Shown: positions 1,195-31,841 of the stretch, in pieces | How the letters are laid out: each line of letters starts with the position of its first letter | Numbering within the stretch: the first letter of the stretch is position 1 | Assembly (NCBI GenBank): GCA_022414725.1 | Contig: CM039462.1 | Coordinates: forward strand, 128,047,314 to 128,111,313 | DNA: 64,000 bases | Source: Microglena sp. YARC | Taxonomy: Eukaryota; Chlorophyta; Chlorophyceae; Chlamydomonadales; Chlamydomonadaceae | Direction: 5' to 3' | Program-made: the position numbers and the translations under genes | The notes under the pieces: model-generated | Database searches by the model: none | Seen by the model: only the letters and a program-made list of their open reading frames with translations | Told to the model about the DNA's origin: nothing

Positions 1195-2440
1195 AAAATC
1201 GTCATGTAGGAAACCCTGGTACAGATGCGATTGGTTGGAAGTTGGATTGCTGGAAGACAGGAAGCTGCCCAGAAGCTGGTACTTGTACCCCAAACAGTAA
1301 ACACCGTGGCTATTTTATACCAGCGCTTAGGCGGGCCAGTGTCTGAGCCCATAGAAATCAGTAGGGCAGCTGTCTAAGAAGGCTGTGTTACATAAGTATG
1401 CCCAAAACAGAAACCGTGGCTATTTTTACAAGTGACCCTTTAGGACAGGGCCAGTGTTGACCAAAAGAATCAGTAAGGGGAGCTGTCTAGAAGTTGGTAC
1501 AAGTAGCCCAAAACAGAAACCGTGGCTATTTTTACCAGTTGCCGATAGGCAGGCCCAGTGTTGATCCAAAGAATAACGTAAGGGTCATAGTGCTGTCTTA
1601 GAAGCTGGACATGTAGCCCAGGACAGAAACCGTGGCTTATTGTTTATGTTACACGGTTTTGGCCTTAGTTATGACAGCGCGATGGCGTGTGCTTATTATT
1701 ATATTTCTGCGTACATATGTCTTATCTTGTAGAATTGATCAGTGCTGCGTATAAAGCTCGATCCCACCACTTTGCATCCTGCGTTGCTGCTTTGGACGCG
1801 TCTTTGTGTCTTGTATCTTGGTCGGTGGACACGGCGGCCTCAGACCATATCGTTCTACCACCCACAGAAACAGGCTCACAACTGAAACGCCTCATGTCTG
1901 AGTGTTTTTCTCATCAGAATCTTGGACCGAGTAATCTCTGGATGGTTTAATGCTGGGCGGCATATTTTCTTCCACTGCATCTATGGGCAACGGGTGGGGC
2001 TCCAACCCATCTCACAACCACAACAGCTCCACGGAGCCATAGGACAGACTTTCAGCTACAATGCAAACCCAAGACCTCTGCGGACAGCGTTCAGCTGTCA
2101 CGAGTCCTTAAGAATATCTGCTATGCAGCTCGATGGTCATACAGGAGAGCACCCATGATCGGTCTTGCAGAGCCACCACGCATGTCTACATGTCTCCTCT
2201 TAAATGATAAAGAGTTGTTCTCTTTCTGATTGTACTACCATCAGCTGTTCGTCACGCACCCTAAGAACTCCTTCCGCTCTAGGACCCCCCTACACTCAGC
2301 AGTATCTTTGTTCTCCAGGTTCTTTGTCGCGCGATAGCCCTCGATTGTGTGGAGGCAGATCTCTAAGGTCTTAGCTAGTGTTATATCAGGTCCGGTGGAC
2401 TTCTTACAGGAGCTTTCGTTTGTCTCGCGCCAGCCACAAG
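1195..2440 (-). repeat. Insertion-rich counterpart of 24.29-25.46 kb (DNA downstream of UBA1)
   Basis: Several stretches align by eye with the right-hand copy. 1209-1290 (ccctggtacagatgcgattg) corresponds to 24295-24360. 1300-1650 holds repeated aaccgtggctatttttac and ggccagtgttgac motifs as at 24488-24540. 1980-2155 (gggtggggctccaaccc onward) corresponds to 24660-24830. The left version carries many extra single bases. It is either an unpolished contig end or a decayed duplicate. Confidence 0.6.
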
Positions 2441-2770
2441 CCGAGCTCATTATCGGGAACTTGTTATGGACCAACAACGGGGTTGCCACTCCAGATCCCT
2501 CGCCGATCGAAATTCTCGTCTTCTTCGCAGACACCACCGATTGTTTCACTGTCGGAAATGCTTGGCGGTAGGCAGGGATTTTTCCATCTTTCGCTAACCG
2601 TGTCCCCACGAGGCTGCTCGATGGTCGTGCTTAAGACGCTCCTTGTAACTGTTGCATGCGGGAAGCATGGTGATGTCATTGCTTTGACATAGGCTCTCTG
2701 GCGCAGCTGATGGAGTACGGCAAGTCAGTTTATCGTTCCTGAGAACAGATGAAATAGTCGAACACCTTGA
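2440..2770 (-). pseudogene. UBA1 exon 12 copy, many indels
   Basis: This is a broken copy of the last UBA1 exon, which encodes the C-terminal ubiquitin-fold domain that recruits E2 enzymes. The plus strand shows the landmarks of the intact exon at 25467-25703 in the same order: cttcgcagacacc, gcttggcggtaggcaggga, ccccacgaggctgctc and gctgatggagta. Numerous single-base insertions separate them and no frame stays open. The differences are mostly insertions, which favours raw long-read error over mutational decay. Confidence 0.75.
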
Positions 2771-2959
2771 GGCGAGTGGGTTGGGGCGTGCGTATGATGA
2801 GTAGGAGTTGGTTTCGGTTTTATGAGTTTGTGTGGCGATGGCGATGATGGAGCCAGGAGGGTATTGTAGGCAGTGTTTGGCATAGGTGGCAACTGGGCAG
2901 GTCTATCCTCCAGTTTGTGGCAGTGGCGGTTCTCTTATTTTTGGCGCTCTTTTCGTGAG

Positions 2960-3070
2960 CTTGGAGTGGAACATGGAAGAGCCAACACACCAGGCTTTGT
3001 CCAGCGGCTGGTTGTTATGGATGTGGGCAGTTCAGCCCCAACCTTTTTGAGAAATAGGTTTGTGTTAGGT
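2960..3070 (-). pseudogene. Partial copy of UBA1 exon 12 5' part, indel-rich
   Basis: It corresponds to the partial exon-12 copy at 25814-25895. Shared landmarks are gaacatgga, cagcggctgg, gggcagt and ttttgagaaataggtttgtg, in the same order and at similar distance from the exon-12 copy. It lies in the intron between exons 12 and 11 of the left counterpart. Confidence 0.55.
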
Positions 3071-3259
3071 GGATAGGTTATGTGGGGAGGGCTGTATGCC
3101 TGCGTGCAGGGTGTGGGTGGTGGGTCTCGTGGGGTTTGGATTGCTGTTTGGTATGGAGGTTGCGATTACACCGTTGGCCAGATGGGGGGTGGTGGGCAGT
3201 GGAGTGTGGTTCTTCCTCTAGTACACATGCTGGCGTGTAGATTCTGAGTTAAGTGTTGA

Positions 3260-4200
3260 TTATATTATAGGTGAGGGTTCGGACTTATTTATATGGTTTA
3301 TGGTTAACAGTCTGGTGCTCCTGATGTTGTGGTTACACAGCACGATGTGCTGGGAAGGAGTGGATGGTACCGACTGTGTGTATGGTGTGGACAATGATGG
3401 TGGTACGGGATTTTGCGAATTGTTGTTGTTTCTGGTTTATTACTGGTGAGTATGGACATGATGTGGTATGTAAGGGTTTATGGTATCGGTCATCCGTACG
3501 GCTTGTGGTTACTTGGGCATCAATGTTGGTTTTGGTGTACTTGGGTAACAGTTCGCTTTTTTATTGATTGTTTTGGTGTATGGATATGTGGTTACAGTCA
3601 GTGTCGGGTATGTCGTGTTGATTTGTGTATTGGGATACGGTCCGCTTGTCTTTTGCGGTACGCGATACAGTTGCGGTGGTATTGTTGTGGTATGGTAGCT
3701 ACTAGTTGTACGTTCGTTCTGTGTTGGTATTGGTAACGTTACAGTGTGGATGGGTTGCTTTGTTGTTTTGTTGTGGCGTGGTACGGAGCATTGTGTGGTT
3801 TTTGTGGTCTGCACGGTTTCTGCTATTGATACGTTATCACTGTGATATGGCGTGCGACAGTAACAAAGTGGTGGCTGGTCGTTCATGGGTGGCACGGTCC
3901 GTGCTGGAAGTGTGATGATACGTACAGTGTGATATGTTGTAGTACATGTGGTGTGGTATGGATTGGTCAGTTGTAGGGTACTTTTACAGCCATATGGTAT
4001 GGTGTGGTATGATGGCAGTTTACAGTTTGGTATGGTGGATGTGGTAATGGTACGGGGTCCGTGTTGATACCGTTACAGTGATGGGATGGTGGTGCTGCTA
4101 CAATGTGGGTGTGCGTATATGGACGTATTGGTACGGTATCGGTACAAGTGGTGTGTTGATGGACGTATGGGTACGGTATGGTACAATGTGGTGTGGTACA
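3260..4200. repeat. Degenerate GGTATGGT/GTACAATGTGGT array
   Basis: Imperfect tandem units rich in tgtggtatgg and ggtacaatgtgg fill the intron between the left copies of exons 12 and 11. The same array in the right copy is split into 26.00-26.74 and 28.77-29.19 kb by a 2-kb insert. Here it is continuous but noisier. Confidence 0.8.
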
Positions 4201-4209
4201 GTTAGTTTT

Positions 4210-4562
4210 ATATCTTAGGGTGCTCAGCCTCGTTCTGCACACCAGTGATGGTTCACCACTCCCAAATCCTAGCGACTCCCGTCACTCTACACTAGCGTCC
4301 ATGTCATGTCTATCTTGGTGCTTGGTTCCACACCTGGGTTGCGATGGCGGAGTCTCACACAATTGCTTAGAGGGGAAGGGCTAGGTTGGCAAACGTTGTT
4401 ACGGTCAATCCTCCACCTTCTTGTTCTGTAAAGAGGCTTGTACAGCTTCCAGGCCACACCTGCCAGTGGCCAGCCGCGGTGGCGTGTTGCAAAATGGCGG
4501 GATATGATTCGACGGCAATTCAGCTTTGGCCTTCAGCTTGTCCACCTCTCCCTACCCTGAGG
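4210..4562 (-). pseudogene. UBA1 exon 11 copy, many single-base insertions
   Basis: This is colinear with intact exon 11 at 29377-29655 over its whole length. Shared plus-strand landmarks are ggaagggctaggttggcaaac, ctccaccttcttgttctgta and cttcagcttgtccacctc. At least a dozen one-base insertions break the frame. The encoded segment is the end of the active adenylation domain. Two tandem partial units of the right copy (29197-29303 and 29377-29655) are represented here by one. Confidence 0.8.
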
Positions 4563-4751
4563 TTGTGTGGTGGTGAGAGTAGGGGTTGTTGAAGTACCAA
4601 AGTAGAAAACTAGAAGGGGGGACCAATGAATCGTGGGGCGTTTTGGGGCACGAGGGCATGGTGTAGAACCTATTGGTAAGAGGTGTGGGGTACGTACAGC
4701 TCTACGCACACCAGGGCCAGTAGCGCAGCAGCAGCGCGGTGGTAGTTTGCA

Positions 4752-5412
4752 ATGGCCGAGATGGTTCTGCTGGCAATCAGCTTTGCCTTGAGCTTGGTCC
4801 AACCTCTCCCACCTGATTACAGGGGTAAGGGTCAGTACTAAAAAGAAAAAAAGCGTGGGTCATGGGCGTGGACATAGGCAGGGTTTTGGTGTAGGTGCTG
4901 CGGTAGTGTGATGGTGTTGGATAGTGGATGCAGGGGCTGCAGTGGCGGCTCTGCAGTGGCGGGGATGAATTCTGCCAGCAATCGGCTTCACTTGAGCTTG
5001 TCCACACTTTCCTAACTGGGGTTTGTGGTTGTGGTGAGACAGGGGTCGTGACAGCAGGTCCGCACCAGTGGAAAACAAAGCCATGGGCATGGGGGGGGGG
5101 TCAAAAGGTCCAGTGGCCTGCTTGGAGAGGATTATTCAAGTATGGCATCAAATAAATAATAAAAAACTGTTGTTATGATTTCTGCCGACGGTCAGCTTCG
5201 AGCCTTCAGCTTGTCCACCTCAGATGGGTGCGGTAAACCGGTCTTCGGCGGCGGCGGCTGGGGGGGGGAGGGGGGGAGGGGTCAAAAGGTCCACTGATAG
5301 GCCTGCCTTAGAGAGGATGATTTAAAGTATGGCATCAATAAATCATTTCAAAAAATTAGCTTTTATGATTCTGCTGACAGTCAGCTTCGCCTTCAGCTTG
5401 TCCACCTCAGGT
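4752..5412 (-). repeat. Tandem truncated copies of UBA1 exon 11 5' end
   Basis: Four copies of the exon-11 start (VDKLKAKL-A type coding on the minus strand) lie at about 4752-4815, 4964-5020, 5176-5222 and 5367-5412, separated by G-rich or low-complexity spacers. They sit on the acceptor side of the intron upstream of exon 11. The right copy has three such units at 29.75-30.21 kb. Confidence 0.7.
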
Positions 5413-5480
5413 GGGTGAGGTAAACAAACTAGAGGCGAAGCTGATTGCCGGCAGAATTATTCCTGCCATTGCAACGGTCC
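5409..5480 (+). pseudogene. Inverted copy of UBA1 exon 11 5' end
   Basis: On the plus strand, 5409 onward reads GTGGGTGAGG and encodes [20 protein letters not shown], the exon-11 start, in the orientation opposite to the rest of the gene. It abuts head-to-head with the minus-strand copy ending at 5412, which makes a palindromic junction. It could be a real inversion or a long-read hairpin artefact. Confidence 0.75.
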
Positions 5481-5837: not shown

Positions 5838-6255
5838 CACACAGTGTGTACCTCGAAGTTACCAGCTTGCATGTTGGTCAGGTCTGCAATGAAGTCCATG
5901 TGGGGGGCAGATAGAAAAACCATGGGGATAGATAGATAGACGAACAGACAGGCTGACGGTCAGAGGAGACAACAGACAGACACAAGCACCGACACACAGC
6001 GAGTTTTCCTCGAAGTGCCAGCACACATTTGTTGGTCAAGTCCGCAATGAAGTCCATTGTTGTGGGGGGGGTGGGGGTGGGGGGCAAGATGGAAAGGACA
6101 CTGGGATACATAGATTGACTGGACCAACCGCCGAGCCGTACAGACAGACTAAGCAGCAGCCAGGCAGGACAACAAGCACGCCGTCACATCACAGAGCATA
6201 CCTTTGTGGCTATAGCACGTTGGCCAGGCCCTAAATGTAAGTCCATGAGGGGGGG
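5838..6255 (-). repeat. Three truncated copies of UBA1 exon 10 3' end
   Basis: Copies lie at about 5838-5905, 5998-6058 and 6196-6255. On the minus strand each begins near HMDFIA and runs through the RNY-type end of exon 10 towards the donor. They are separated by cagacagac-rich spacers. The third is the most diverged. Confidence 0.7.
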
Positions 6256-6279
6256 CAGATGGAAAGACAATGGAGATAG

Positions 6280-7376
6280 ACTCCCGCAAGCCCCTGGAGG
6301 TAGTGGAAGATTGTGGATGGACCATGGCTGTTTTACTCCATGGGCCATTCCCACAAGCTTGACGACCTCCAGGGCCTCGTGGGAAGCTTGTGTCAGCCTG
6401 TCTGTCTGCCCGCCTGGTCTGCCCTGCCAGAATCTACGTGCTTGTTGCCTGTCTGTCTGCACGTCAGCCTGTTCACAAGCTTCCCATCGAGCCCCTAGAC
6501 GGGAACCATTCCCACAAGGCCTGACCACCTCCAGGGGCTTGTGGGAATCTTGTGTCTGCCTGCCTGTCTGCCTGCCTTAAACCCCGTGCTTGTGTCTGTC
6601 TGTCTGTCTGTCTGTCTGCATGCCACAAGCTTCCCACGAGGCCCTGGAGGTATTCAAGCTTGTGGGATGGACCATGGGGTGGACAGCCCATGTCTGTCCA
6701 CTGGATGGTCCATCTCACAAGCTTGACTACCTCGAGGATCTCGTGGGAAGCTTGTGACTGCCTGTCTGTCTGCCTGCTAGAAGTTTTGTGCTTGTGTGTC
6801 TGTCTGTGTGTCTGTCTGCCCGTCAGCCTGCCACAAGCTTGCCACGAGCCCCTGGAGGTAGTGAAGCTTGTGGGATGGACCATGGGGTGGACAGACATGG
6901 GCTATTTAAGCCATGGGCCATCCCACAAGCTTGACAACCTCATGGATCTCGTGGGAAGCTTGTGTCTGCCTGTCTGTCTGCATGCCTGCTAGAAATTTCG
7001 TGCTTGTGTCTGTCCTGTCTTGCCTGCCCGCCAGCCTGCCACAAATCTTTCCCACGAGCCCCTAGTGAGGTAGTGAAGCTCGTGGGATTGGACCATGGGG
7101 TGAAACAGCCCATGTAACTGTTTTGACTCCATGGGCCATCCCACAAGCTTGATAACCTCCAGGGGCTCGTGGGAAGCTTGTGTCTGCATGCCTGTCTGTC
7201 TGCATGCCTGTCTTCTTGCCAGAAGCTCCGAACTTGTGTCTGCCTGCCACAAGCTTCCCACTAGACCCTAGGGGTAGTAAAGCTTGTGGGATGGACCGTA
7301 GGGTGGACAGACATGGGCTGTTAACCTCATGGGCCATCCCACAAGCATGACTACCTCCAGGGCTAGCGGCAAAAGT
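6280..7376. repeat. Six tandem long-hairpin (palindromic) repeats
   Basis: Units at about 6283-6393, 6478-6556, 6623-6757, 6830-6965, 7038-7181 and 7248-7376 recur every ~200 bp. Each has arms of about 45-58 bp, cacgagcccctggaggtagt against actacctccaggggctcgtg, around a ~25-nt loop. The spacers are ctgtctgtctgcc-rich. Two more units occur in the right copy at 30689-30805 and 31340-31465. A transcript of either strand would fold into stable hairpins. Confidence 0.85.
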
Positions 7377-7730
7377 TTGTGGCAGGAAGGACGGGCTGAC
7401 GGGCAGGCAGACAGACACAAGCACAGGCTGACGGGCAGGGCAAGATATACAGGCGTACTGGCAGACAGACAGACACAAGCTCAGGCTGCCGGGCAGGCAG
7501 GCAGACATACAAAAAGCACAGGCTGACGGAAGGCGGGCAAGAACAGACCACAAACACAGGCTGACGGGCAGGCAGACGGACAGAGAGACACAAGCACAGG
7601 CAGGCAGGCAGACATACAGGCTTACTGGCACACAGATATACACAAGCGCAAAATGACAGGCAGGCAGGCAGGCAGACATACACAAGCACAGGCTGACGGG
7701 CAGGCAGGCAGACAGACACAAGCACCAACA
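7377..7730. repeat. GACGGGCAGGCAGACAGACA minisatellite
   Basis: Imperfect units of caggctgacgggcaggcag plus acagacacaagcacagg fill this stretch of intron 10. The spacers between the hairpins to the left read as the reverse complement (ctgtctgtctgcc), so orientation flips at the hairpin block. Confidence 0.85.
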
Positions 7731-8236
7731 CACACAGTGTGTCCATTGAGGTTGCGGGCACGCATGTTGGCCAGGCCCCCAATGAAGTCCATGTGGGGTG
7801 GGCATTTGGAAAGACCATGGGGGATAGATAGACTGACAGACAGGCTGACGGGCAGATAGACAGACAGACACATGCACCAACAACAACAGGTGTGTCCATT
7901 GAGGTTGCGGGCACGCATGTTGGCCAGGCCCTAAATGAAGTCCATGTGGGGTGGGCATTTGGAAAGAGTATGAGGATAGATAGACAGACAGACAGGCTGG
8001 CAGACAGAAACAAGCACCGACACACACAGTGCGTACATCGTGGTTGCGAGCATGCATGTTGCAAGGCCCTAAATGAACTCCATGTGGGGGGGGGGGGGCT
8101 TTTTGGAAAGGACCATGAGGACAAATAGACAGAAAGACAGGCTGACGGGGCAGGACAGACAGGACACACACAGTGCGTACATCGTAGTTGCGAGCACGCA
8201 TGTTGCAAGGCTGGCTATGAGGTCCATGTGAGGGGC
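7731..8236 (-). repeat. Four truncated copies of UBA1 exon 10 3' end
   Basis: Copies lie at about 7735-7795, 7888-7945, 8030-8090 and 8176-8236. Each encodes an HMDFIAGLANMRARN-type segment and ends at the donor-like GATGTACGCAC or its variants. Spacers are (cagacagg)n and gggggg tracts. All lie on the donor side of intron 10, directly downstream of full-length exon 10. Confidence 0.8.
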
Positions 8237-8330: not shown

Positions 8331-8684
8331 ATCGTAGTTGCGAGGCACGCATGTTTGGCCAGCCGGCAATGGAAGTTCCATGTGGAAGTGTTAGCGTCGT
8401 CGTCCTTCTCGAATTTCGATGGGCGTCAGCTTGAAGCTAGCAGGGAGTGCTGCCTTGGCAGCCACCATCTTCGCCATCAGTCCGTCGATAACCGCCTCGT
8501 CGTCCTCTGTCAATGAGGAGTAGTTCTTGGAAGCCTTGGGGTCTGTCTCAATCTTGACACCCTTGCGGGGCTCGAAGACAGGTACTTTCACCTTCTCTGC
8601 GCACACGGCGGCCACCTTGAGGGCGTCGTCGGCATAGGCGGGGCGGGGGATGCCGTAGACGTCCGCCTTCAAGATGGCCCCAGA
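8331..8684 (-). CDS. UBA1: UBA1 exon 10, frameshifted near its 3' end
   Basis: The acceptor cccccag|TCTGGGGCC leads into [20 protein letters not shown] through KLTPIEI. Single-base insertions (GAAATTCGAG where GAATTCGAG is expected, and several in the last 70 nt) then interrupt an EKDDDAN, MDFIAGLANMRARNYD reading. Donor GAT|GTACGT. It joins the second catalytic-cysteine domain to the end of the adenylation domain. Indel density rises from here leftwards. Confidence 0.88.
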
Positions 8685-11600
8685 CTGGGGGAGAGGGGGA
8701 GAGGGGGAGAGGGGAGTGTGGGGGGTTAGGTCCTGTATTTGCTTTGGTCTTGCTTTAGTTTGGTTGTGCACTCGGCTAACACCCGAAGGGCGTTGCCAGC
8801 ATAGTTGGGACGGGGGATGCCGTAGACGTCCGCCTTCAGGATGGCACTAGACTGGGGGGGAGGGGGAAAGGGGAGTGTGGGGGGTTAGGTCCTGTCTTTG
8901 CTTTGGTCTTCCTTTAGTTTGGTTGTGCACACGGCAGCCACCTTCAAGGCGTCGCTGGCGTAGTCTGGACGGGGGATGACGTAGACTTCCGCCTTAAGGA
9001 TGGCGCCTGACTGGGGGAGAGGGGGAGACCGGAGGAGGGTATGCCATGTACTTGTTTTGGTTGTTGGTGTTTGTCTGTGTTTGGGTCAAACACTAGGGGG
9101 AGAGGCAAGCGCTCGGATGCCGACCAGAATGGAAGGTGGAGGTGAGCTGGACCCACCCACATTTACAATTGTACCAATCCCCATCATTCCATCCACCCAT
9201 ACCATCAACACTAACACCAGCCCCCCACCCCACCCCCACACCCCCCACACACATATTACAGTGTCCATGAGCTGGGCCCACCCACGGCACCCCCACGTCC
9301 ACCACCCCTGCACCCAACCCCACACACACCACCCACACGTAACCCCGCGTCCACCACACACGCAACCCAAACCCATGAAACACCACCCACACGCAACCCA
9401 ACATCCACCGCCCCCGCACCCAACCCTACAAACACCACCCAAACGCAACCCCTCGTCCACCACCCCTGCATCCAACCACACGAACACCAACCACGCGCAA
9501 CCCAGCATCCACCAACCCCACACCCAACCCCACAAACACCACCCACACCCACTCACCTGGACAAATGCAGCATGCGACAGGTCCTTAGGGTCAAACACCA
9601 GGGGGCGAGGGAAACGCTTGGGTGCCGACCAAAGGGGGCCGCCGGTGGAGGTAGTAAGCATCCTCAAGGGAAGGTGTAGGTGAGCTGAGCGATGCGGTTG
9701 TAGTGGTACTCTTGGAAGCGGTGGCGGGCCCAAGATATACAGTCCTCAAATGTGAGGCAACGGTCGCTCACCAACACATCCACTACCTGCGGGTTGGGTT
9801 GGGAGGGAGAGAGGGAGGGGGTGAAGGGTAGGGTTGAGAGCGGTTGGGTTTGAGTGGGTAAGGGTTGGGGTAGGGGTTGGGTAAGGTTGGGTAAGGTTGG
9901 GTAAGGTTGGGTAGGGTTGGGTTGAGAGGGAGGGGGTGGGCTGGGCTGGGCAGGGAAGAGTTGGGTTGTGTGGGATGGGGAGATAGGGAGGGGAGGGAGG
10001 ATGGGGAGAGAGGTGAGGGGTGAGCTGAGGTTGTATACGTACTCTTGGAAGCGGTGGCGGGCCCAGGATGTGAAGTCCTCTTATGTGAGGCAACGGTCGC
10101 TCACCAACACATCCACTACCTGCGGGTTTGGAGGGAGGGAGAGACGGAGGGAGAGAGGGAGGGGTTGGGTTTGGAGGGTTGGGCTGGCTGGAAGGGGGGG
10201 AGGGGTTGGGGTGGGTGGGGAGGGAGAGGCTGGGTTTGGTTGTTTGGGTTTGGGTAGGGGCAGCGTGAGGGTGGTGGGGTATGAAGTCTATGGACATGGT
10301 GTAGCATTTGCCCATCAACACATCCACTACATTACATTGTATTAGGCAGGCCAGTGTTGACCCATGGCCTGTTTCCAATTGGATTGTCATGTTTCCCCTT
10401 CGTGATGATATCTTCAAGGAAATAGGAAAAGTAAAAACCGGGTTTGCGTAAACCTTTTCGACCCTCTTCGTTGCGCAATCCAGACTACCCAAACCCAACC
10501 CATCCGAACCCAACCTTACCCAACCAGCTGAGCCAAAAGCAACCTAACGTACCTGAACCCAACCTACCCTATCTGAACCGAAACTATCAAAACCCAACCC
10601 ATCCAAACCCAACCTTACCCAACCAGCTGAGCCAAAAGCAATTTAACGTACCTGAACCCAACCTACCCTATCTGAACCCAAACTATCAAAACCCAACCCA
10701 TCCCAAACCCAACCTTTTACAAAACCCAACCAGCTGAGCCAAAAGCAACCTAACGTACCTGAACCCAACCTACCTATCTGAACCCAAAAACTATCGAAAC
10801 CCAACCCCATTCAAAACCCAACCTTACCCCAGGCCAGTGTTGACCCAAGGCTCCGCTTCCAACTAGATTTGTCACGTTTCCCCTTTAAATGATATCCAAC
10901 CCACCTGCTCCAGCTGTGCCTTGATGGCATTCGAGACCTTGACAGAGTCGATGAGAAACGTGATAGCCACAGCTGGTCCCTTGTCCTACAGCCCTGCCCC
11001 CCCCTCTCATGCCCCCCCCCACACACCACACTCAGTCGCCTCCACCTGCCCCCCCCCCCCCCCCCTCTCGTGCCCTCCTCTCAACCCACCTGCTCCAGCT
11101 GTGCCTTGGCAGCAGCGTCCTTGTTTGGCCATGATGGCGTTCCAAGAAGCTTGTTCAGAGTCCCATGAAGAAACGTGTTGGCCTCAGCTGGTCCCTTCTC
11201 CAACAGACCCTCAAACTCCGAGCGTGCCCAGGTCAAGCAGTGGTCGATGTTGTGTGGGAAGGAGTGGACGGTGCACATGGGGGACTGCTTCTCAGGAGGG
11301 TCACGACTGGCTCCATAGTTCTCTGTCAGGCCAGGAATCACCACCTGTGGGTGGGTTTTGAGTTGTTAGATGAGGTAGGGTGTGAATGGGATGGGTAGGA
11401 AGGCAGGTAGGTAGGTAGGTTGGAGGTGGATGAGGGGTAAGTGGGTTGGATTTTGTTTGAGGGTTTGTGGATAACGTCGATGGGCTGGTTGATGGCTTAA
11501 ATACGCGAGCAAACTAAGCAGCCTTGTGTGTTGCACTTGGGTCCCAACAAATTCAAAGTTCGAACTTACATATACATTTAAACATACCAACTAACCAAAC

Positions 11601-21600: not shown

Positions 21601-21760
21601 TTAAGATGTTGGAAGCAGCCATGCGCCTCATGACCTCGCGTCCGTAGACAGCGATCTGCCTGGAGTGCAAATTCTCATCGAGCACGACCTCAGAGACAAC
21701 CATTTTTGTTTTTTTCGAGCAGGACTTGACAGGAGAATGAAGGCGCTTGTTAGCAGACAT
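8331..21760 (-). CDS. UBA1: Ubiquitin-activating enzyme E1 (gene span, exons 1-10)
   Basis: E1 adenylates ubiquitin with ATP, captures it as a thioester on a catalytic cysteine and passes it to E2 enzymes in the cytosol and nucleus. Ten exons in order on the minus strand rebuild most of a plant-type E1. The N-terminal adenylation half includes [10 protein letters not shown] and GLGCEIAKN. The first catalytic-cysteine half-domain follows. The active adenylation domain has [18 protein letters not shown] and [12 protein letters not shown]. The catalytic segment is PMCTVHSFP, followed by the second catalytic-cysteine domain. Introns use GT/AG. Exons 1, 2, 3, 5, 7 and 8 are open; exons 4, 6, 9 and 10 carry single-base indels. 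Exons 11 and 12 of this copy survive only as indel-rich versions at 4.2-4.6 and 2.4-2.8 kb. Whether it is functional or a pseudogene cannot be decided from this sequence alone. Confidence 0.93.
8767..9010 (-). repeat. Two in-frame copies of exon 10 5' end with acceptors
   Basis: Starts at 9010 (ctcccccag|TCAGGCGCCATC) and 8851 (ccccag|TCTAGTGCCATC). They encode [20 protein letters not shown] and [20 protein letters not shown], both open, with a few changes relative to exon 10. They sit directly before full-length exon 10 and could compete for its acceptor. Confidence 0.88.
9068..9150 (-). repeat. Truncated copy of exon 9 interior/3' part
   Basis: The minus strand encodes [17 protein letters not shown], matching [16 protein letters not shown] of exon 9. 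It marks the end of the donor half of intron 9. Confidence 0.8.
9170..9550. repeat. CACCACCCACACGCAACCC repeat, donor side of intron 9
   Basis: About a dozen imperfect ~35-bp units. GT/GGGTG-rich on the coding strand. It gives long spurious open frames on both strands. Confidence 0.88.
9557..9786 (-). CDS. UBA1: UBA1 exon 9, two +1 insertions
   Basis: It encodes [40 protein letters not shown], then [20 protein letters not shown] and HAAFVQ, with donor CCAG|GTGAG. This is the second catalytic-cysteine domain. Two extra T near 9645-9665 shift the frame; removing both gives 76 codons. The APKRFPRPL motif is typical of E1. Confidence 0.88.
10025..10332 (-). repeat. Two truncated copies of exon 9 5' end with acceptor
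   Basis: The first starts at 10119 with cccgcag|GTAGTGGATGTGTTGG and runs to [10 protein letters not shown] with one stop. The second, near 10283-10332, is more diverged ([11 protein letters not shown]). Spacers are ggttgggtttgg on the plus strand. Confidence 0.82.
10480..10830. repeat. ~100-bp repeat (acccaacctaccctatctgaac), intron 8
   Basis: Three units of acccaaccagctgagccaaa plus agcaacctaacgtacctgaac. Mid-intron 8. CA/C-rich on the plus strand. Flanking motifs (ggccagtgttgaccca at 10350 and 10827) belong to a dispersed repeat also seen at 1.3-1.6 and 24.5 kb. Confidence 0.85.
10905..10983 (-). repeat. Truncated copy of exon 8 3' end with donor
   Basis: The minus strand encodes [20 protein letters not shown] then AQLEQ|GTGGG, in frame and similar to the end of exon 8 (GPAEANTFL...AKAQLEQ). 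It lacks the central part of the exon-8 tail. Confidence 0.85.
11090..11344 (-). CDS. UBA1: UBA1 exon 8 (catalytic cysteine)
   Basis: 85 codons, open, from [20 protein letters not shown] through [20 protein letters not shown] to AAAKAQLEQ. The cysteine of PMCTVHSFP is the expected ubiquitin-thioester residue. Acceptor cccacag|GTGGTGATTCCTGG, donor GAGCAG|GTGGGT. The 100-bp satellite at 32.4-40.3 kb has the acceptor and first ~20 nt of an exon like this one at its core. Confidence 0.95.
11500..12400 (-). repeat. Six truncated copies of exon 7 3' end with donor
   Basis: Copies ending near 12284, 12140, 11766, 11685, 11605 and 11524 match the exon-7 end ([19 protein letters not shown]). The longest, 12284-12395, reaches back to [10 protein letters not shown]. 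The last three retain only about 25 nt of exon and recur every 80 bp with aaattcaaattcgaac spacers. 11850-12110 holds an AT-richer unique insert. Confidence 0.9.
12462..12936 (-). CDS. UBA1: UBA1 exon 7 (active adenylation domain core)
   Basis: 475 nt, fully open, from YDGQISIFG to [10 protein letters not shown]. It holds the ATP-binding [12 protein letters not shown] loop, the acidic VTDDD segment, [25 protein letters not shown] and [17 protein letters not shown]. Acceptor ctgtccag|GTATGAC, donor CACAG|GTATG. This is the best-preserved exon and fixes the identity of the gene. Confidence 0.96.
12950..13290. repeat. GGGTTAGGGTGAGGGCGGGG repeat, acceptor side of intron 6
   Basis: Gagggcggggggttagggt units followed by ggtggtggtg lie before exon 7. 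They are C-rich on the coding strand. They resemble telomere repeats superficially but are short and degenerate. Confidence 0.8.
13290..13935 (-). repeat. Four truncated copies of exon 6 3' end and donor
   Basis: Copies end at donors near 13303, 13472, 13693 and 13856. They encode QW-YFDSIES-type segments and continue towards CCAGTGGGCTCAAG|GT. Several begin at ctgtccaccag, which could serve as an acceptor and make them 60-80-nt cassettes. Spacers are (gtggtg)n on the plus strand. Confidence 0.85.
14022..14352 (-). CDS. UBA1: UBA1 exon 6, frameshifted
   Basis: The acceptor ttgcccag|GCTGAG leads into [19 protein letters not shown] and [19 protein letters not shown]. After a frameshift near a TGA come [16 protein letters not shown] and [12 protein letters not shown], with donor CTCAAG|GTAGG. 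This is the four-helix and return part of the N-terminal adenylation half. At least two single-base changes are needed for a continuous frame; one, an extra base in gtacaaacc, is absent from the downstream partial copies (gtaaaacc). Confidence 0.82.
14470..14702 (-). repeat. Two truncated copies of exon 6 5' end with acceptor
   Basis: At about 14474-14500 and 14664-14695 the minus strand reads gccctgctcag|GCTGTCAGACCGGG and gccttgctcag|GCTGAGACCAGGC. Both match the exon-6 start GCTGAGACCGGGCACGCC. G-rich spacers with gatggggagg motifs surround them. Confidence 0.8.
14808..15012. repeat. Dispersed repeat in intron 5, copy 1 (ggctccgccaaaaa end)
   Basis: This block shares ttggcggagagtg, agttacgag, ccgttg.ctga.gtgtc, a cggacaaacgg stretch and ggctccgccaaaaa with 28275-28497 in the same order. 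Probably a non-autonomous mobile element. Confidence 0.75.
15076..15233 (-). CDS. UBA1: UBA1 exon 5
   Basis: 158 nt in frame encode [19 protein letters not shown] through [18 protein letters not shown], with donor GAG|GTATGG. The segment leads from the first catalytic-cysteine half-domain back to the adenylation half. FDRPPLLH is a hallmark of eukaryotic E1. No indels. Confidence 0.93.
15258..15355. repeat. (GT)n followed by a ~33-nt poly-G tract
   Basis: This pure dinucleotide then homopolymer lies between exon 5 and the first truncated copy. On the coding strand it is poly-C then (CA)n, an exaggerated pyrimidine-rich acceptor context. Confidence 0.95.
15358..15860 (-). repeat. Four truncated copies of exon 5 5' end with acceptor
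   Basis: Starts lie at 15407, 15560, 15727 and 15860. Each reads gtgtaccag|GTGGCATCGTGACTCAG and encodes GGIVTQVK(N/S/Y)AKVLFFNTV before ending in poly-C/CA. Spacers are (gt)n and poly-G on the plus strand. All lie on the acceptor side of intron 4, ahead of full-length exon 5. Confidence 0.93.
15966..15998 (-). repeat. Truncated copy of exon 4 3' end with donor
   Basis: The minus strand reads GACACCAGCTTATATGGGGA then GTACCTGAGAG|GTTAGCC, encoding [11 protein letters not shown]. It keeps the four-G run missing from exon 4 itself. It sits at the boundary where intron 4 switches from CA-rich to GT-rich on the plus strand. Confidence 0.85.
16000..16735. repeat. ACACACCTACACACTCACAC minisatellite in intron 4
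   Basis: Tens of imperfect 18-24-bp units of acacacctacacactcac or acacacctacacactgac. The array is GT-rich on the coding strand, on the donor side of intron 4. Confidence 0.9.
16788..16929 (-). CDS. UBA1: UBA1 exon 4, frameshifted
   Basis: It encodes [17 protein letters not shown], then a lysine-rich link, then [14 protein letters not shown] and YLRG, with donor CGAG|GTGAGT. It covers the end of the first catalytic-cysteine half-domain. Three local problems break the frame: an extra G at the acceptor side, a run of seven A near 16850 where six would restore the frame, and three G where the copy at 15966 has four. All are homopolymer-associated, which suggests consensus error. Confidence 0.8.
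17022..17043 (-). repeat. Copy of exon 4 5' end with in-frame acceptor
   Basis: The minus strand reads acatccag|GATGGTGAGTGCGTC, encoding [17 protein letters not shown], then runs into poly-C and poly-A. Its acceptor is in frame with exon 3, unlike the one on the longer exon-4 copy at 16929. It may therefore be used, or may be a decoy. Confidence 0.8.
17386..17880. repeat. 46-55-bp tandem repeat (aaacaaaatggccatagtac + CA tract)
   Basis: About nine units of ttgaaacaaaatggccatag followed by a variable (ca)n tract. Three central units at 17430-17540 are nearly identical. Confidence 0.88.
17945..18175. repeat. Dispersed repeat (gcgcgtttcgcgcagttttt), copy 1
   Basis: A unique-looking block with agccccactgcgcgtttcgc and caaccccctgtgggcgcagc recurs at 26985-27165 in the same orientation. 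It is inserted among the cacacac repeats of intron 3, and the DNA to 18360 shows no tandem repeat. No coding potential was recognised. Confidence 0.8.
18500..19360. repeat. Near-identical ~425-bp direct duplication within intron 3
   Basis: Sequence around 18500-18935 recurs 425 bp downstream at about 18925-19360. From 18716-18935 against 19141-19360 I see no differences. The unit holds three exon-3-end copies. This points to a recent duplication layered on older repeats. Confidence 0.85.
19629..19716. repeat. CT microsatellite just inside intron 3
   Basis: A (ct)n tract with ctccct interruptions lies directly after the exon-3 donor, GA-rich on the coding strand. It is followed by cacacacac. 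Confidence 0.9.
19728..19982 (-). CDS. UBA1: UBA1 exon 3
   Basis: 85 codons in frame run from [16 protein letters not shown] to VEDERLQFQ, with donor CAG|GTGTGTGTG. It includes [21 protein letters not shown], typical of the N-terminal adenylation half, and enters the first catalytic-cysteine half-domain at [18 protein letters not shown]. The exon is intact. It is bracketed on both sides by truncated copies of its own ends. Confidence 0.93.
20124..20170 (-). repeat. Truncated copy of exon 3 5' end with acceptor (proximal)
   Basis: The minus strand reads cacccacacag|GTGGTTGTGGTCACC, encoding [18 protein letters not shown]. It carries the same truncation and the same flanking gtgggtgtg repeat as the distal copy. 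Confidence 0.87.
20296..20342 (-). repeat. Truncated copy of exon 3 5' end with acceptor (distal)
   Basis: The minus strand reads cccacacag|TTTGTCGTAGTCACC and continues as [18 protein letters not shown], then dissolves into G-rich repeat. It matches the start of exon 3 ([16 protein letters not shown]). Confidence 0.85.
20360..20960. repeat. GGGTGTGGGTGAGGGT array in UBA1 intron 2
   Basis: Gtgggtgtgagggtgtgggt-type units run from about 20360 to 20790 and are CA/C-rich on the coding strand. The remainder to 20960 is a short unique stretch followed by a gggtgggtgggtgg tract next to the exon-2 donor. Confidence 0.8.
20977..21194 (-). CDS. UBA1: UBA1 exon 2
   Basis: The acceptor ctgtag|CC completes the alanine codon of the [16 protein letters not shown] segment. 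218 nt stay in frame to KQFQ, and the donor is CCAG|GTAAAA. The exon continues the N-terminal Rossmann-like adenylation half ([25 protein letters not shown]). No indel is visible. Confidence 0.92.
21568..21760 (-). CDS. UBA1: UBA1 exon 1 (start codon, N-terminus)
   Basis: The exon encodes 64 codons plus one base, from [10 protein letters not shown] to [10 protein letters not shown]. It holds the conserved [12 protein letters not shown] segment and the glycine-rich nucleotide-fold start of the inactive adenylation half. The donor is GAAATTG|GTCAGT. The chosen ATG at 21760 gives a short lysine-rich leader before DENLHSRQ. The frame stays open upstream to 22018, so an earlier start is possible but unlike known E1 sequences. 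Confidence 0.9.
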
Positions 21761-24460: not shown

Positions 24461-24794
24461 GAAGAGAAAAAAATACTTGTAGCAAAAAACAGAACCGTGG
24501 CTATTTTTACAGTGCCTTAGGCAGGCCAGTGTTGACCCAAGTACCCAACACGATCCCCCACCACTGCATCTTGGGTGGGGCCTCCAACCAATCCACCCAA
24601 CAGAACAGCTCACTAACCGCCATCAGTTCATCAGAACTTGACAGAAGGTAATGGCGCATCCAGGGTGGGGCTCCAACCATTCTCACAACACAACACAACA
24701 CAACAAAACACAACAGCTCACGAGCCACAGACAGTTCAGCTACAAAGCAACAAGACCTCTGCGACAGCAGCGTCTACAAGAGCTTAAGAATTCA

Positions 24795-24876
24795 TCAGGA
24801 CTCGATGGTCACTAAGGACGCACCCAGATCCTCTCCATCTTCATCCTCGCAGGCCACCAAGATGGTCAATATGAGC
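24795..24876 (-). pseudogene. Truncated copy of UBA1 exon 12 3' end
   Basis: The minus strand encodes LVACEDEDGEDLGASLVTIE then stops, matching VVACEDDDGEDLDAPLVSIK at the true C-terminus (25467). Adjacent cagcagcgtctacaagagct motifs recur at 24765, 24890 and 25430, so the 3' end of the gene is also tandemly duplicated. Confidence 0.85.
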
Positions 24877-25466: not shown

Positions 25467-25703
25467 TCATCGGAACTTGATGGACACCAAGGGTGCATCC
25501 AGATCCTCGCCATCGTCGTCTTCGCAGGCCACCACGATGTCGAAATGCTTGCGGTAGGCAGGGATTTCCATTTTCGCAACCGTGCCCACGAGGCTGCTCA
25601 TGGTCTGCGTTAGACGCTCCTTTTGCCTGGAGCTGTACATTAGGCTTTGGCCGCAGCTGATGGAGTAGGCAGTCAGTTTACGTTCTGAGAAATAGTCGAG
25701 CAC
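25467..25703 (-). CDS. UBA1: UBA1 exon 12 of upstream copy (C-terminus)
   Basis: The acceptor ccctcag|GTGCTCGAC leads into VLDYFSERKLTAYSISCGQS through KMEIPAYRKHFDIVVACEDD to PLVSIKFR and TGA: 78 codons, open. This is the E1 ubiquitin-fold domain. TAYSISCG and VVACEDDDG match plant E1 closely. It is the intact counterpart of the broken copy at 2.44-2.77 kb and belongs to a second UBA1 gene whose N-terminal exons are not in this window. Confidence 0.94.
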   Translation of the reverse strand: MLDYFSERKLTAYSISCGQSLMYSSRQKERLTQTMSSLVGTVAKMEIPAYRKHFDIVVACEDDDGEDLDAPLVSIKFR

Positions 25704-25813
25704 CTGAGGGAGTGGGTTGGGTTGGATGAGTAGGTTTGGTTTTGGTTTGGTTCGGGATGGATGGGGCAGGGTAGGGCAGGTTTAGTTGGGTTGGCAAGGG
25801 TGTGGGTTAGGCG

Positions 25814-25895
25814 CTTCTTGTGCTTAGGGAACATGGAGCTGAACATCAGGATTTGCCCGCAGCTGGTGGAGTAGGCAGTCAGCCCGCTTTTGAGA
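25814..25895 (-). pseudogene. Truncated copy of exon 12 5' part
   Basis: The minus strand encodes LTAYSTSCGQILMFSSMFPK then HKKRL, matching LTAYSISCGQSLMYS of exon 12. It sits on the acceptor side of intron 11. Confidence 0.85.
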
Positions 25896-25999
25896 AACAG
25901 GTTGTGTTGGGTGGGATGGCAAGTAAGGGCTGGGCTAGGTGGGGAGGTTTGGGCTGGGGGTTGGATTGGGTTGGGATGGCTTGGTGGTTGGTTGGAGTG

Positions 26000-29190: not shown

Positions 29191-29196
29191 GCTCAC

Positions 29197-29303
29197 CTGC
29201 TGCACAGTGAGGTCACCCTCCAGAATCCAGCGGTCCCACAGCGTCCGTGTCATGTCTTGGTACTTGCACACCTTGGGTGCGATGGGCTCACACATGGTGG
29301 AGA
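29197..29303 (-). repeat. Truncated copy of UBA1 exon 11 3' end with donor
   Basis: The minus strand encodes [20 protein letters not shown] then [19 protein letters not shown]. It is nearly identical to the end of exon 11, with changes T/C, H/Y and W/R. It lies on the donor side of intron 11. Confidence 0.93.
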
Positions 29304-29376: not shown

Positions 29377-29655
29377 CTGCTGCACAGTGAGGTCACCCTC
29401 CAGAATCCAGCGGTCCCACAGCGTCCATGTCATGTCTTGGTGCTTGGTCACCTTGGGTGCGATGGGCTCACACATGGCGTAGAGGGGAAGGGCTAGGTTG
29501 GCAAACGTGTTACGGTAATCCTCCACCTTCTTGTTCTGTAAGAGCTTGTACAGCTCCAGGCACACCATGCCAGTGGCAGCCGCGGTGGCGGTTGCAATGG
29601 CGGGGATGATTCGACCGGCAATCAGCTTTGCCTTCAGCTTGTCCACCTCGCCCAC
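29377..29655 (-). CDS. UBA1: UBA1 exon 11 of upstream copy
   Basis: 93 codons, open: [58 protein letters not shown], then [20 protein letters not shown]. Acceptor tattcag|GTGGGC, donor CAGCAG|GTGAGC. It ends the active adenylation domain (crossover and [11 protein letters not shown] helix). It joins in phase 0 to exon 12 at 25703. Confidence 0.95.
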
Positions 29656-29744
29656 CTGAATACAGGGGTTGCGACAGTACAGATTCGGAAGTAGGTAGCG
29701 AAGTAGGGACAGGGTTTGTGATGGCGTTGGAAGGGGAAGAAGGG

Positions 29745-30206
29745 GCTGCCGTGGCGGGAATGGTGCTGCCGGCAATCAACTTTGCCTTAAGCTTGTCCAC
29801 CTAAACCCACCACCACGCTCTCACCCCCCAACACCCCCACCCCACACACACCCCAGGTTGTCTTCCCACCCCCAGTATCCTTTCAAGCCCCCCTCTATCT
29901 CTCTCTTCACACCCAATAGACGCTTTGCCCCCGCCGCAGTGGCAGTTGCCGTGGCGGGAATGGTGCTGCCGGCTATCAGATTTGCCTTAAGCTTGTCCAC
30001 CCCGCCCACCTGAATACAGAGATAGAGCCAGCACTAAAAAGAAAGAAGCTTGGGTATGGGCGTGGGCATAGGCAGGGTTGGTGTAGGTGATGCGGTAGTG
30101 TGATGGTGTTGGAAGGGGAGGCAATGGTAGCCGTGGTGGCGGTTGTAATGGCGGGGATGATTCTACCAGCAATCAGCTTTGCCTAGAGCTTGTCCTCCTC
30201 GCCCAC
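29745..30206 (-). repeat. Three truncated copies of exon 11 5' end
   Basis: Starts lie near 29800, 30009 (attcag|GTGGGCGGGG) and 30206 (tattcag|GTGGGCGAGG). They encode [22 protein letters not shown] segments and fade after 60-70 nt. All lie on the acceptor side of intron 10. Confidence 0.88.
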
Positions 30207-30369
30207 CTGAATACAGGGGTAGGGACAGTACAAGGTCGGAAGTAAGGGCCGGGGCAGGGGTTGTGATGGCGTTGGAAGGGGGGGAGGGGTGTAACTACGA
30301 TATAAAATATGAAGCCGCGGTGGGGGCGGGGGCGAGGGCATGTGTATGGGAAGAGGTGTGGTATGTACA

Positions 30370-30562
30370 GCTCTAAGTGGTAGACCAGATCGCTTGAGGA
30401 CGAAGAGTCGGTGGTTCGACTCCCCCTTCGTTCGCTCTTGGCGTTGCATGTCGTCGTCTACCGCGATGGTAGCTTGTCCAGTCGAGGTAGGAGACCGCTC
30501 CCCACCCGCGTACGACGGGCTCCCTTAACACCACACCCCACCAGGCGTTATCATTACAGCTC
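30370..30562 (+). mobile_element. tRNA-derived SINE, family B, copy 1
   Basis: Agtggtagaccagatcgctt (A-box region), then gtggttcgactcccccttcg (B box), then a body with accgcgatggtagcttgtcc and a tail ccaccaggcgttatcattac. About 85% identical by eye to 57835-58020. Confidence 0.82.
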
Positions 30563-30688
30563 TAGGCACGCTAGGCTAGGAGCAGTAGCAGCAGTGGCGG
30601 TCACACTCATAGTTGCGAGCACACATGCTGGTCAGGTCTGCAATGAAGTCCATGTGTGGGGCGGGTGGAAACAGAATGGAGATAGACT

Positions 30689-30805
30689 CCCACGAGCCCC
30701 TAGAGGTTGTGAAGCTTGTGGTATGGACCATGGAGTGGACAGACATGGGCTGTCTACCCCATGGGCCATCCCACAAGCTTCACAACCTCCAGGGGCTCGT
30801 GGGAA
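30689..30805. repeat. Long-hairpin repeat, right copy 1
   Basis: Left arm cccacgagcccctagaggtt and right arm aacctccaggggctcgtggg. Arms are ~45 nt with about three mismatches and the loop is ~25 nt (gtggacagacatgggctgtc). Same family as the six units at 6.28-7.38 kb. Confidence 0.92.
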
Positions 30806-31050
30806 GCCTGTTGCAGGCAGACTGGTTGACGGGCATACAGACAGGCACAAGCACAGGCTAACAGGCGGACAGACAGACAGACAGGCTGACATAACACAAG
30901 CACAGGCTGACGGGCAGGCAGGTAGGCAGACAGGCTAACAGGCTGACAGGCAGACAGACAGACAGGCTGACATAACACAAGCACAGGCTGACGGGCAGGC
31001 AGGCAGACAGGCTAACAGGCAGACAGGCAGACAGACAGACAGACACAAAG
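30806..31050. repeat. CAGGCTGACGGGCAGGCAGG minisatellite
   Basis: Units of gacataacacaagcacaggc plus tgacgggcaggcaggcagac between the hairpin and the next exon-10-end copy. Confidence 0.9.
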
Positions 31051-31339
31051 ATGAACACATATAGTGCATACCTCGTAGTTGCGAGCACGCATGTTGGCTA
31101 AGCATGCAATTAAGTCCATGTGTGTGGGGGGGTGGGGGTGGGGGTAGGGGTGGGGGTGGGGGCAGATGGAAAGACACTGGGGATACATAGATTGACTGAC
31201 CAACCGACAGACAGACAGGCTAGCAAGCAAGCAGACAAAAGCACCCACAAACACAGTGCGTCACTTGCAGTTGCGAGCACACATGTTGGTCGGGCCCGCC
31301 CTAAATGAAGTCCATGTGGGCGGAAGATGGAAAGAGAAT

Positions 31340-31465
31340 GGAGATAGACTCCCAAGAGCCCCTGGAGGTAGTTCAGCTTGGGGGATGGACCATGGGGTGG
31401 ACAGACATGGGGGTTTACCCCATGTTCCATCCCACAAGCTTGACTACCTCCAGGGGCTCGTGGGA
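31340..31465. repeat. Long-hairpin repeat, right copy 2
   Basis: Arms agagcccctggaggtagt and actacctccaggggctc with loop gtggacagacatgggggttt. Same family as 30689-30805. Confidence 0.9.
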
Positions 31466-31841
31466 AGCTTGTGACAGGCAGACAGGCTGACGGGCATACA
31501 GACAGACACAAGAACAAGCTGACAGGCAGACACAATCACGAACTCACAAAGTGCATATTTCTTAGTTGCAAGCACACATGTTGGCTAAGCATGCAATGGA
31601 GTCCATGTGTGGGGCAGAGGAAAGACACTGGGGATATATAGATAGATTGACCAACCGACAGACAGCCTAGCAAGCAGGCAGACGGGCAGGCTGATAGACT
31701 CAAGCACGTACACACGCACACAGTGTGAACCTCGAAGTTGCGAGCACACATGTTGGCTAAGCACGCAATGAAGTCCATTTGGGGGGCAGATAGAAAGACA
31801 GTGGGGATAGATAGATAGACTGACCAAGACCCCGTTTTGAC

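Follow-up and report, generated by a model that had tools for sequence, protein, structure and literature searches.

The window, a 64,000-nucleotide stretch of contig CM039462.1 of the green alga Microglena sp. YARC, carries on its reverse strand a UBA1 gene (gene A) that extends from 21703 to about 2440. Apart from it stands a partial second copy (copy B, 24.8-31.8 kb), which corresponds to the 3' part of gene A and lacks exons 8-10; an earlier note on this DNA had taken the range 2440..31790 for a single gene. Beyond that range, the pattern described below recurs in a long array of exon 8 beginnings and at 51.5-54.0 kb, where a second gene lies (Table 1). Among named protein neighbours, green algae of the Chlamydomonas-Volvox type predominate. 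UBA1 exon positions were set by homology and splice consensus; as search queries for copy B, exon 11 was ended at 29374 (3 bases too far) and exon 12 was taken as 25704-25470. A codon-usage gene finder, trained partly on an out-of-frame exon 12, was dropped, having recovered 7 of the 12 exons of UBA1, a single one of the two S1 exons in the window and none in locus L007. ARAGORN and Rfam searches of the whole window each returned no match, nor did Pfam assign a family to the last S1 exon. The first part of the window (1-6 kb) is a contig end that resembles uncorrected sequence, and a 1000-N gap ends 468 bases to the left of the window.

Table 1. UBA1, exon-array and S1 features of the window
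Feature	Position	Strand	Remarks
UBA1 gene A exon 1	21568..21703	-	start codon at 21703; no copies by profile and tile searches
Gene A exon 2	20977..21194	-	no copies by profile and tile searches
Two acceptor-type copies, exon 3 start	20113..20348	-	
Gene A exon 3	19728..19982	-	
Array, 11 donor-type copies of exon 3 end	17136..19587	-	last (17161-17136) partial, without junction
Acceptor-type copy, exon 4 start	16946..17045	-	
Gene A exon 4	16787..16929	-	broken frame, probably assembly indels
Donor-type copy, exon 4 end	15961..15997	-	
Four acceptor-type copies, exon 5 start	15352..15866	-	
Gene A exon 5	15076..15233	-	no donor copies by profile search
Two short acceptor-type copies, exon 6 start	14465..14710 (approximate)	-	
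Gene A exon 6	14022..14352	-	broken frame, probably assembly indels
Four donor-type copies, exon 6 end	13302..13946	-	
Gene A exon 7	12462..12936	-	no acceptor copies by profile search
Six donor-type copies, exon 7 end	11523..12407	-	three with only about 25-30 exon bases
Gene A exon 8	11090..11344	-	no acceptor copies inside gene A
Donor-type copy, exon 8 end	10899..11014	-	
Acceptor-type copy, exon 9 start	10011..10125	-	
Gene A exon 9	9557..9786	-	
Downstream copy, bases 135-202 of the 230-base exon 9 (3' region)	9080..9143	-	stops short of donor
Two acceptor-type copies, exon 10 start	8751..9015	-	
Gene A exon 10	8331..8684	-	body matched once in genome assembly
Seven donor-type copies, exon 10 end (gene A)	5850..8230	-	
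Inverted copy, exon 11 start	5407..5469	+	
Four acceptor-side copies, exon 11 start (gene A)	4694..5409	-	low-quality contig end
Gene A exon 11	4266..4552	-	insertion-rich sequence
Gene A exon 12	2516..2767	-	insertion-rich sequence
B: five donor-type copies, exon 10 end	30607..31781	-	
B: three acceptor-type copies, exon 11 start	29721..30210	-	
B exon 11	29377..29655	-	
B: donor-type copy, exon 11 end	29191..29303	-	
B: acceptor-side copy, exon 12 start	25789..25900	-	
B exon 12, terminal	25467..25703	-	with stop codon
Copy of terminal exon's 3' end, downstream of exon	24790..24873	-	splice donor not involved
Array of about 100-bp units, 78.5 by TRF	32424..40337	-	each unit acceptor plus first exon 8 bases
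Plastid-type ribosomal S1 gene, internal exon	52122..52280	+	S1 domain
Six donor-type copies, 3' part of internal S1 exon	52402..53301	+	
Acceptor-type copy, last S1 exon	53633..53707	+	
Last S1 exon	53767..54031	+	

With 60-nt exon ends as queries, iterated profile searches find 56 truncated exon copies in 2440..31790, not counting the true exons or the degraded exons 11 and 12 that belong to gene A itself; the some 40 copies that the earlier note had seen in UBA1 introns are real. Exon 3 contributes two acceptor-type and 11 donor-type copies, exon 4 one of each, exon 5 four acceptor-type, exons 6, 7 and 8 four, six and one donor-type, exon 9 one acceptor-type, exon 10 two acceptor-type and 12 donor-type, exon 11 eight acceptor-type (one inverted) and one donor-type, and exon 12 one acceptor-type copy and one of its 3' end. 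Three copies come on top of the 56: two of the exon 6 acceptor and one of the exon 9 3' region. Acceptor-side copies had been claimed for exons 3, 4, 5, 6, 9, 10, 11 and 12, and each was found; for the donor side (exons 3, 4, 6, 7, 8, 9, 10 and 11) the downstream copies exist, with the reservation that the one of exon 9 does not reach the donor.

Copies keep to the side of the exon edge from which they derive. When the 12 exons were cut into 266 tiles of 40 nt, 135 matches outside those exons were obtained (reversed tiles of the same exons gave none), and all matches within 9 kb, the limit of the side table, obey one rule: upstream matches come from exon 5' parts only and downstream matches from 3' parts only. 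Farther matches, which include copy B exon 11 matching gene A's copies, were left untabulated. A further similarity search yielded 42 non-self exon matches, two of them off-pattern: a weak inverted exon 6 match overlapping that exon's own edge (E 0.001) and a match of the exon 8 interior at 53.3 kb (E 0.007). Within 9 kb there is no wrong-side copy, as the earlier note had found, and one inverted copy, at 5407-5469, is strong. One copy (24790-24873) repeats the terminal exon's 3' end, an edge that has no donor, whereas the earlier note had put a donor in every donor-side copy.

The pattern is genuine and is not confined to UBA1. The exon-8 array gives 80 profile matches to the exon 8 acceptor (32.4-40.3 kb) with no exon 8 body attached, and stops at a scaffold gap. 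Two S1-domain genes conform to the side rule; in the one in the window a weaker acceptor-type copy of the last exon also aligns near 53494 (identity 0.67). In a sample of chaperonin and proteasome genes copies occur at 19 of 53 exon loci (13 of 30 chaperonin, 6 of 23 proteasome; the 30 include L027 and L032, which are the same exon region, and L009 and L014, which look intronless), and lie on the expected side at all 22 exon sides; no inverted copy was seen in either sample. Seeming exceptions have local explanations: at L007 the 3' ends of exons X1 and X3 are alike, and the two matches upstream of X3, like the two that lie far downstream of X1, fall on copies of the other exon; at L024, 2 of 89 downstream tile matches come from the 5' half and represent a long 3'-end copy crossing the midpoint. 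Many introns carry half-exon fossils of their own growth.

Could collapsed or chimeric long reads have made the copies? The seemingly uncorrected contig end at 1-6 kb, the missing exons 8-10 of copy B and the 100-bp array that stops at a gap would suit such an origin. Against it, identity of the copies to the true exon is graded, from 0.67 to 1.00 over 45 bases, unrelated genes on several large contigs contain copies, a gene model taken from a different source (P0022) contains two, and read artefacts should not leave exon interiors untouched. An assembly artefact is very improbable, and a pure one was rejected on the chaperonin and proteasome copies and the graded identity.

What was duplicated is not exon alone. 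The intron flank of a copy matches the true intron flank over at least 50 of 70 nt in 34 of 46 usable rows (two of 48, the exon 4 acceptor and the third exon 11 acceptor, were dropped because they aligned to the true junction itself); for ten exon 3 donor copies the flank alignment spans only 10-13 intron bases. The copies are direct and head-to-tail, each unit consisting of an exon part and the adjoining intron, which is the arrangement of boundary-spanning tandem duplication. Identity to the true exon drops with rank from the exon in four of six rankable arrays (Spearman -0.58, -0.80, -0.99 and -0.71, the exon 7 trend leaning partly on three copies with only about 30 exon bases). There is no trend in the exon 10 donor array (-0.01 for A and B pooled; -0.64, p 0.12, for A alone) or the exon 11 acceptor array (-0.07), and the exon 5 acceptor array is uninformative. 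Flanks and rank trends together support the earlier inference of repeated tandem duplication across the exon/intron boundary.

Drift of the copies is close to that of noncoding DNA. Mismatches to the true exon number 95, 101 and 115 at codon positions 1, 2 and 3 (of 639, 639 and 644), or 85, 77 and 107 (of 548, 556 and 551; 0.155, 0.138 and 0.194) when frame-broken exon 6 is left out; the third-position excess is what silent drift of the true exon would be expected to produce, and does not prove that copies go unused. Single-base indels are common. Splice dinucleotides are retained in 18 of 23 acceptor copies and 35 of 46 donor copies (36 with the corrected exon 11 end, that donor row having been scored lost because the exon end used was 3 bases off; several exon 11, 12 and 4 acceptor rows that align poorly were also scored as lost sites). 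That most copies keep AG or GT, that gene model P0022, probably of the same species, contains two stretches matching copies, and that the innermost copies in the exon 4-5 intron bracket a 105-nt mini-intron might suggest a function: the copies could serve as alternative exons, or the long introns could be spliced stepwise (nested or recursive splicing) from sites inside them. We consider this improbable. Retention falls inside the spread of neighbouring dinucleotides, and selection for it was rejected on that ground; the differences at all three codon positions and the indels led to rejection of alternative exons; P0022 is listed without transcript evidence; and among the sampled UBA1, chaperonin and proteasome exons none is copied over its full length (in this check the limits of L026, whose match contains a stop, are unsure, and an array at 42220-42854 was left out).

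Recurrent local tandem duplication, filtered by selection, probably explains where the copies lie. Duplication of units often near 170 bp would recur in introns and adjoining exon edges. When a unit crosses an edge, the complete exon would stay intact and a truncated copy, with one splice site and part of the exon, would enter the neighbouring intron, necessarily on the side of its source edge, since any tandem duplication across an edge forces that geometry. Duplications within exons, or of whole exons, would alter the protein and be purged. If exon definition holds, with exons recognised as wholes, half-exons without a partner site would be ignored by the spliceosome, and junction-crossing duplications, being therefore nearly neutral, would accumulate. 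Repeats would so drive exons apart, turning introns a few hundred bases long into introns of 1-3 kb, each with its older core in the middle. The junction-spanning units, the side rule in sampled genes, the similar copying of exon ends and introns, the depletion of exon interiors and the near-noncoding drift are observed; we infer neutrality, exon definition and short ancestral introns. The earlier picture of introns growing inward from both ends is right in that introns expand by duplication, and would be better put as growth at exon edges around an older core.

Tile counts bear on whether junctions themselves are singled out. Local direct copies are found for 356 of 902 deep-intron tiles (0.40), 49 of 147 near-intron tiles (0.33) and 19 of 58 exon-end tiles (0.33), the chaperonin exon limits being domain-match limits; exon interiors are depleted (10 of 95). 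A process that duplicates splice junctions specifically, through DNA breaks at R-loops, say, or repair from an RNA template at splice sites, could account for copies on one or both sides of most UBA1 exons. In the three genes with limits set here, where 8 of 25 exon-end tiles compare with 13 of 51 near-intron and 148 of 365 deep-intron tiles, exon ends may be copied modestly more often than near intron. Local copies are also commoner in introns (0.395) than in sampled unannotated stretches (33 of 632, or 242 of 1653 over a wider set, transposons lumped in), an excess not predicted by uniform duplication. Such targeting is nevertheless unlikely: over all segments exon ends do not exceed introns, the donor-less 3' end of the terminal exon has been copied as well, and the position of the junction in the unit is indistinguishable from uniform (mean exon share 0.53; KS p 0.11, n 13). 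Slower drift of the exon template should, moreover, keep exon copies visible longer, biasing detection toward them. (The 14 unit lengths and exon shares were entered by hand and omit the exon 4 donor, about 820 bp, the terminal exon, about 675 bp, the exon 6 and 12 acceptors and the 100-bp exon 8 array.)

In nine introns (intron 9, both B introns and the L007 introns excluded) the core between innermost copies has a median of 370 nt, against 1117 nt in total; six related algae have median introns of 198-343 bp (PMC8226300). Simulated random duplications on introns of 200-400 nt span a junction in 60-90% of tolerated events. With ancestral introns of a few hundred bases, chance duplication would thus often strike a junction.

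Introner elements carry splice sites and add intron content to genes. They are, however, one element family across many genes, whereas the algal copies found derive from the neighbouring exon; a transposon or introner origin was rejected or left weak, exon 10 DNA (the one exon searched) matching only its own locus and first local copy, in a search that did not list the second and so was not exhaustive. Tandem exon duplication can yield mutually exclusive exons, which likewise arise beside their source; these are complete, with two splice sites and coding constraint, whereas the algal copies are truncated and drifting. Intronic minisatellites and tandem repeats form the same head-to-tail arrays, with units of tens to hundreds of bases; the algal founding unit differs in taking in part of the neighbouring exon, anchoring the array on the gene. 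In Rogers-type intron gain a new intron arises inside a former exon; here, viewed in this assembly alone, copies lie in introns between intact exons. For potato RdRp, tandem duplication across an intron-exon boundary is reported (PMC4974935, which also cites Gao and Lynch 2009 on internal gene duplication). There, too, the duplicated segment brings splice signals along; in contrast to that case, in which a new intron is made, the algal copies lie inside existing introns, which lengthen, and the event repeats many times per intron in several genes, the copies seemingly being skipped. No paper on introns lengthened by junction-spanning duplication is among the matches listed, from a coverage mostly outside subscription journals. 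The earlier note knew of no named mechanism, but the side rule is geometric and requires no new one, junctions are not clearly favoured, and boundary duplication is in print (PMC4974935). The phenomenon is a known process in a new and extensive form, unusual in its scale.

Exon ends serve as slow-drifting tags in introns: they tell how many growth steps occurred, in which order and how old each is relative to the others, and intron growth becomes testable gene by gene. Transposons are commonly credited with intron lengthening. Half-exon arrays also raise a question for splicing, namely what singles out the outermost sites from so many look-alike decoys. Introns of related algae are described as conspicuously long, with no known advantage of that length so far (PMC8226300).

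A second unusual feature, and only a lead, is that unit spacing in genes is often near 170 bp (13 of the 53 loci, eleven overlapping L039-L042 plus L009 and L014, are omitted from this analysis). It is conceivable, if doubtful, that intron growth is driven mainly by a gene-biased tandem duplication favouring units of about 150-210 bp, in which exon ends would be bystanders of the copying and become dated landmarks; the broader spread of spacings in short loci weighs against this reading. A unit of 150-210 bp is close to the length of a nucleosome or an Okazaki fragment.

Iterated profile searches with the exon ends recover the truncated exon copies that the earlier note had described in the introns of UBA1, 56 of them between 2440 and 31790, true exons excluded. 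When the exons are cut into 266 tiles of 40 nt, 135 matches are found outside exons and 0 with reversed tiles as control. For matches at distances up to 9 kb, tiles copied upstream come only from the 5' parts of exons and tiles copied downstream only from the 3' parts, which is the side rule that had been noticed in the sequence. The longest copies extend about 120 nt into the exon; no copies were found for either of the first two exons, nor for the donor of exon 5 or the acceptor of exon 7. There is one strong inverted copy, as had been observed, and two weak matches are off pattern: exon 6 matches inverted sequence overlapping the exon's own edge, and the interior of exon 8 has a match at 53.3 kb. 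Downstream copies are indeed 3' exon ends, but they do not all carry a donor: one of them repeats the last part of the terminal exon, which has no splice donor.

A head-to-tail duplication spanning a donor puts another exon end, followed by another intron start, directly behind the first donor, and the copy can land nowhere else; with dispersed copying, copies would be expected on both sides. The side rule, being forced by tandem geometry, thus tells us what kind of event took place, namely local tandem duplication, but does not point to a new mechanism. The unnamed mechanism that the earlier note had suspected is therefore not needed. Its proposal of tandem units that span the exon/intron boundary fares better: of 46 usable rows, 34 have an intron flank that aligns with the true one over at least 50 of 70 nt, a match comparable to that of the exon part. 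(In ten exon 3 donor copies only 10-13 intron bases align.) Recurrent tandem duplication crossing exon edges is most likely the mechanism, and such duplications would be tolerated because half-exons are probably harmless. The type of process is already known; its extent as an intron builder and a possible preferred unit length merit follow-up.

The observation is confirmed and reaches other genes on several large contigs. A genome-wide PF00118 search for chaperonin exons gave 64 matches, and the 30 of these given as loci were tested; copies lie within 1.5 kb at 13 of the 30, with 126/126 upstream tile matches from the 5' half and 87/89 downstream ones from the 3' half. Among proteasome exons (PF00227, all 23 matches used) six have copies, and 12/12 upstream and 16/16 downstream tile matches are on the expected side. 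Neither the 30 chaperonin loci nor the 23 proteasome exons yielded inverted copies or control matches (0 in each case). Since tile matches in one array are not independent, the better count is of exon sides with copies, and 22/22 in the two families obey the rule. For the plastid-type S1 gene of the window (51.5-54.0 kb) there are six donor copies and one or more acceptor copies; in a related gene 10 kb past the window, in locus L007, donor copies follow exons X1, X2 and X3, and X2 is also preceded by an acceptor copy. Before X3, at L007 7141-7518, acceptors followed by about 11 bases of exon are arrayed in short units (about 22-44 bp, by eye). The truncation rule may have an exception in the S1 region: at 42220-42854 lie about 4.5 units of 140 bp, which by eye resemble an entire short exon together with its acceptor and donor.

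Is the junction special? Counting a direct copy 40-1500 bp away as local, and with chaperonin exons limited by their domain matches, we found local copies for 356/902 deep-intron, 49/147 near-intron and 19/58 exon-end tiles, for 10/95 tiles in exon interiors and for 33/632 in unannotated stretches (reversed controls 0 throughout). In the three genes whose limits were set here the figures are 148/365, 13/51, 8/25 and, for exon interiors, 4/40. The similar shares imply that exon ends behave like intron; the depletion of exon interiors is what one would expect were duplications within exons eliminated. On average, 0.53 of a unit is exon (13 junctions; KS test against a uniform distribution, p 0.11). 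When random duplications are simulated, those tolerated cross a junction in 90, 60, 44 and 29% of cases for introns of 200, 400, 600 and 1000 nt, respectively. In nine introns, the median length is 370 nt for the core that the innermost copies enclose and 1117 nt for the intron as a whole; median introns of 198-343 bp are given for six related algae in PMC8226300.

Mismatch rates at codon positions 1, 2 and 3 are 0.149, 0.158 and 0.179 in all 29 copies, and 0.155, 0.138 and 0.194 in the 25 left on removing exon 6, whose frame is broken. The splice dinucleotide is kept in 18/23 acceptor and 35/46 donor copies (36 once an exon end is corrected), neighbouring dinucleotides at 0.72 (sd 0.13) and 0.64 (sd 0.15), respectively. 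Both patterns fit near-neutral decay, and we infer that splicing skips the truncated copies through exon definition. Similarity is highest in the copies closest to the exon in four of six rankable arrays (the exon 7 trend coming partly from short copies), so growth is seemingly still ongoing at the exon edge.

At 23 chaperonin and proteasome exon sides, the first copy lies at a median spacing of 181 bp (range 99-540), the pair from the chaperonin locus L026 being unsure; at 14 hand-listed UBA1 and S1 junctions the median is 170.5 bp, leaving aside longer spacings at about 675 and 820 bp. Array clusters are not fully independent, but 40/91 in long gene segments are spaced at 150-210 bp, against 15/74 in short loci. 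Half of all 165 clusters fall within 110-220 bp; for 31 clusters from unannotated stretches the share is 0.19. These stretches also have fewer local copies (242/1653 tiles, with a share varying from 0 to 0.81, in a small sample with transposons not separated). A preferred spacing, if there is one, might be linked to nucleosome or Okazaki-fragment length.

The window is placed at C1:128047314-128111313 of a 568 Mb assembly of 2390 contigs. Gene A, the UBA1 gene, has 12 located exons, and its protein is nearest to green-algal proteins (69% for the best full-length match). P0022, a 756-aa gene model from another source that matches it at 88% across 73% of the query, is probably of the same species. 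Copy B, a partial second copy of the 3' part of the gene, is either a tandem partial duplication or an assembly problem; the exon 10 body was found once in the assembly. In a comparison of 24800-31800 with 1-8300, copy B is the cleaner, lies upstream of gene A and lacks exons 8-10. Window 1-6 kb resembles uncorrected sequence of the kind left at the end of a contig; 468 bases left of the window a gap of 1000 N stops, and another lies at 40338-41337. At this second gap ends an array (32424-40337) of 78.5 near-identical 100-bp units by TRF, each with the exon 8 acceptor and with no exon 8 body attached. The profile searches make 80 exon 8 start matches there and find no exon 8 acceptor copies in gene A, a strong copy-number difference between the two UBA1 stretches.

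Features of the UBA1 locus (window coordinates)
Feature	Position	Strand
UBA1 gene A	21703 down to about 2440	minus
Copy B, UBA1 3' part (exon 10 end copies, exons 11 and 12)	24.8-31.8 kb	
Only strong inverted copy	5407-5469	
Copy of terminal-exon 3' end, no splice donor	24790-24873	

Other repeats were seen in passing. An element about 190 bp long, which begins like a tRNA and by eye resembles a SINE, recurs at 30383-30540 and 57828-58010 in the window and at 6210-6410 and 6890-7080 in L007; ARAGORN and Rfam made no calls in the window. Five direct-repeat families with units of 27, 39, 44, 45 and 74 bp follow in series at 60564-62699, these units being shorter than most in the genes studied.
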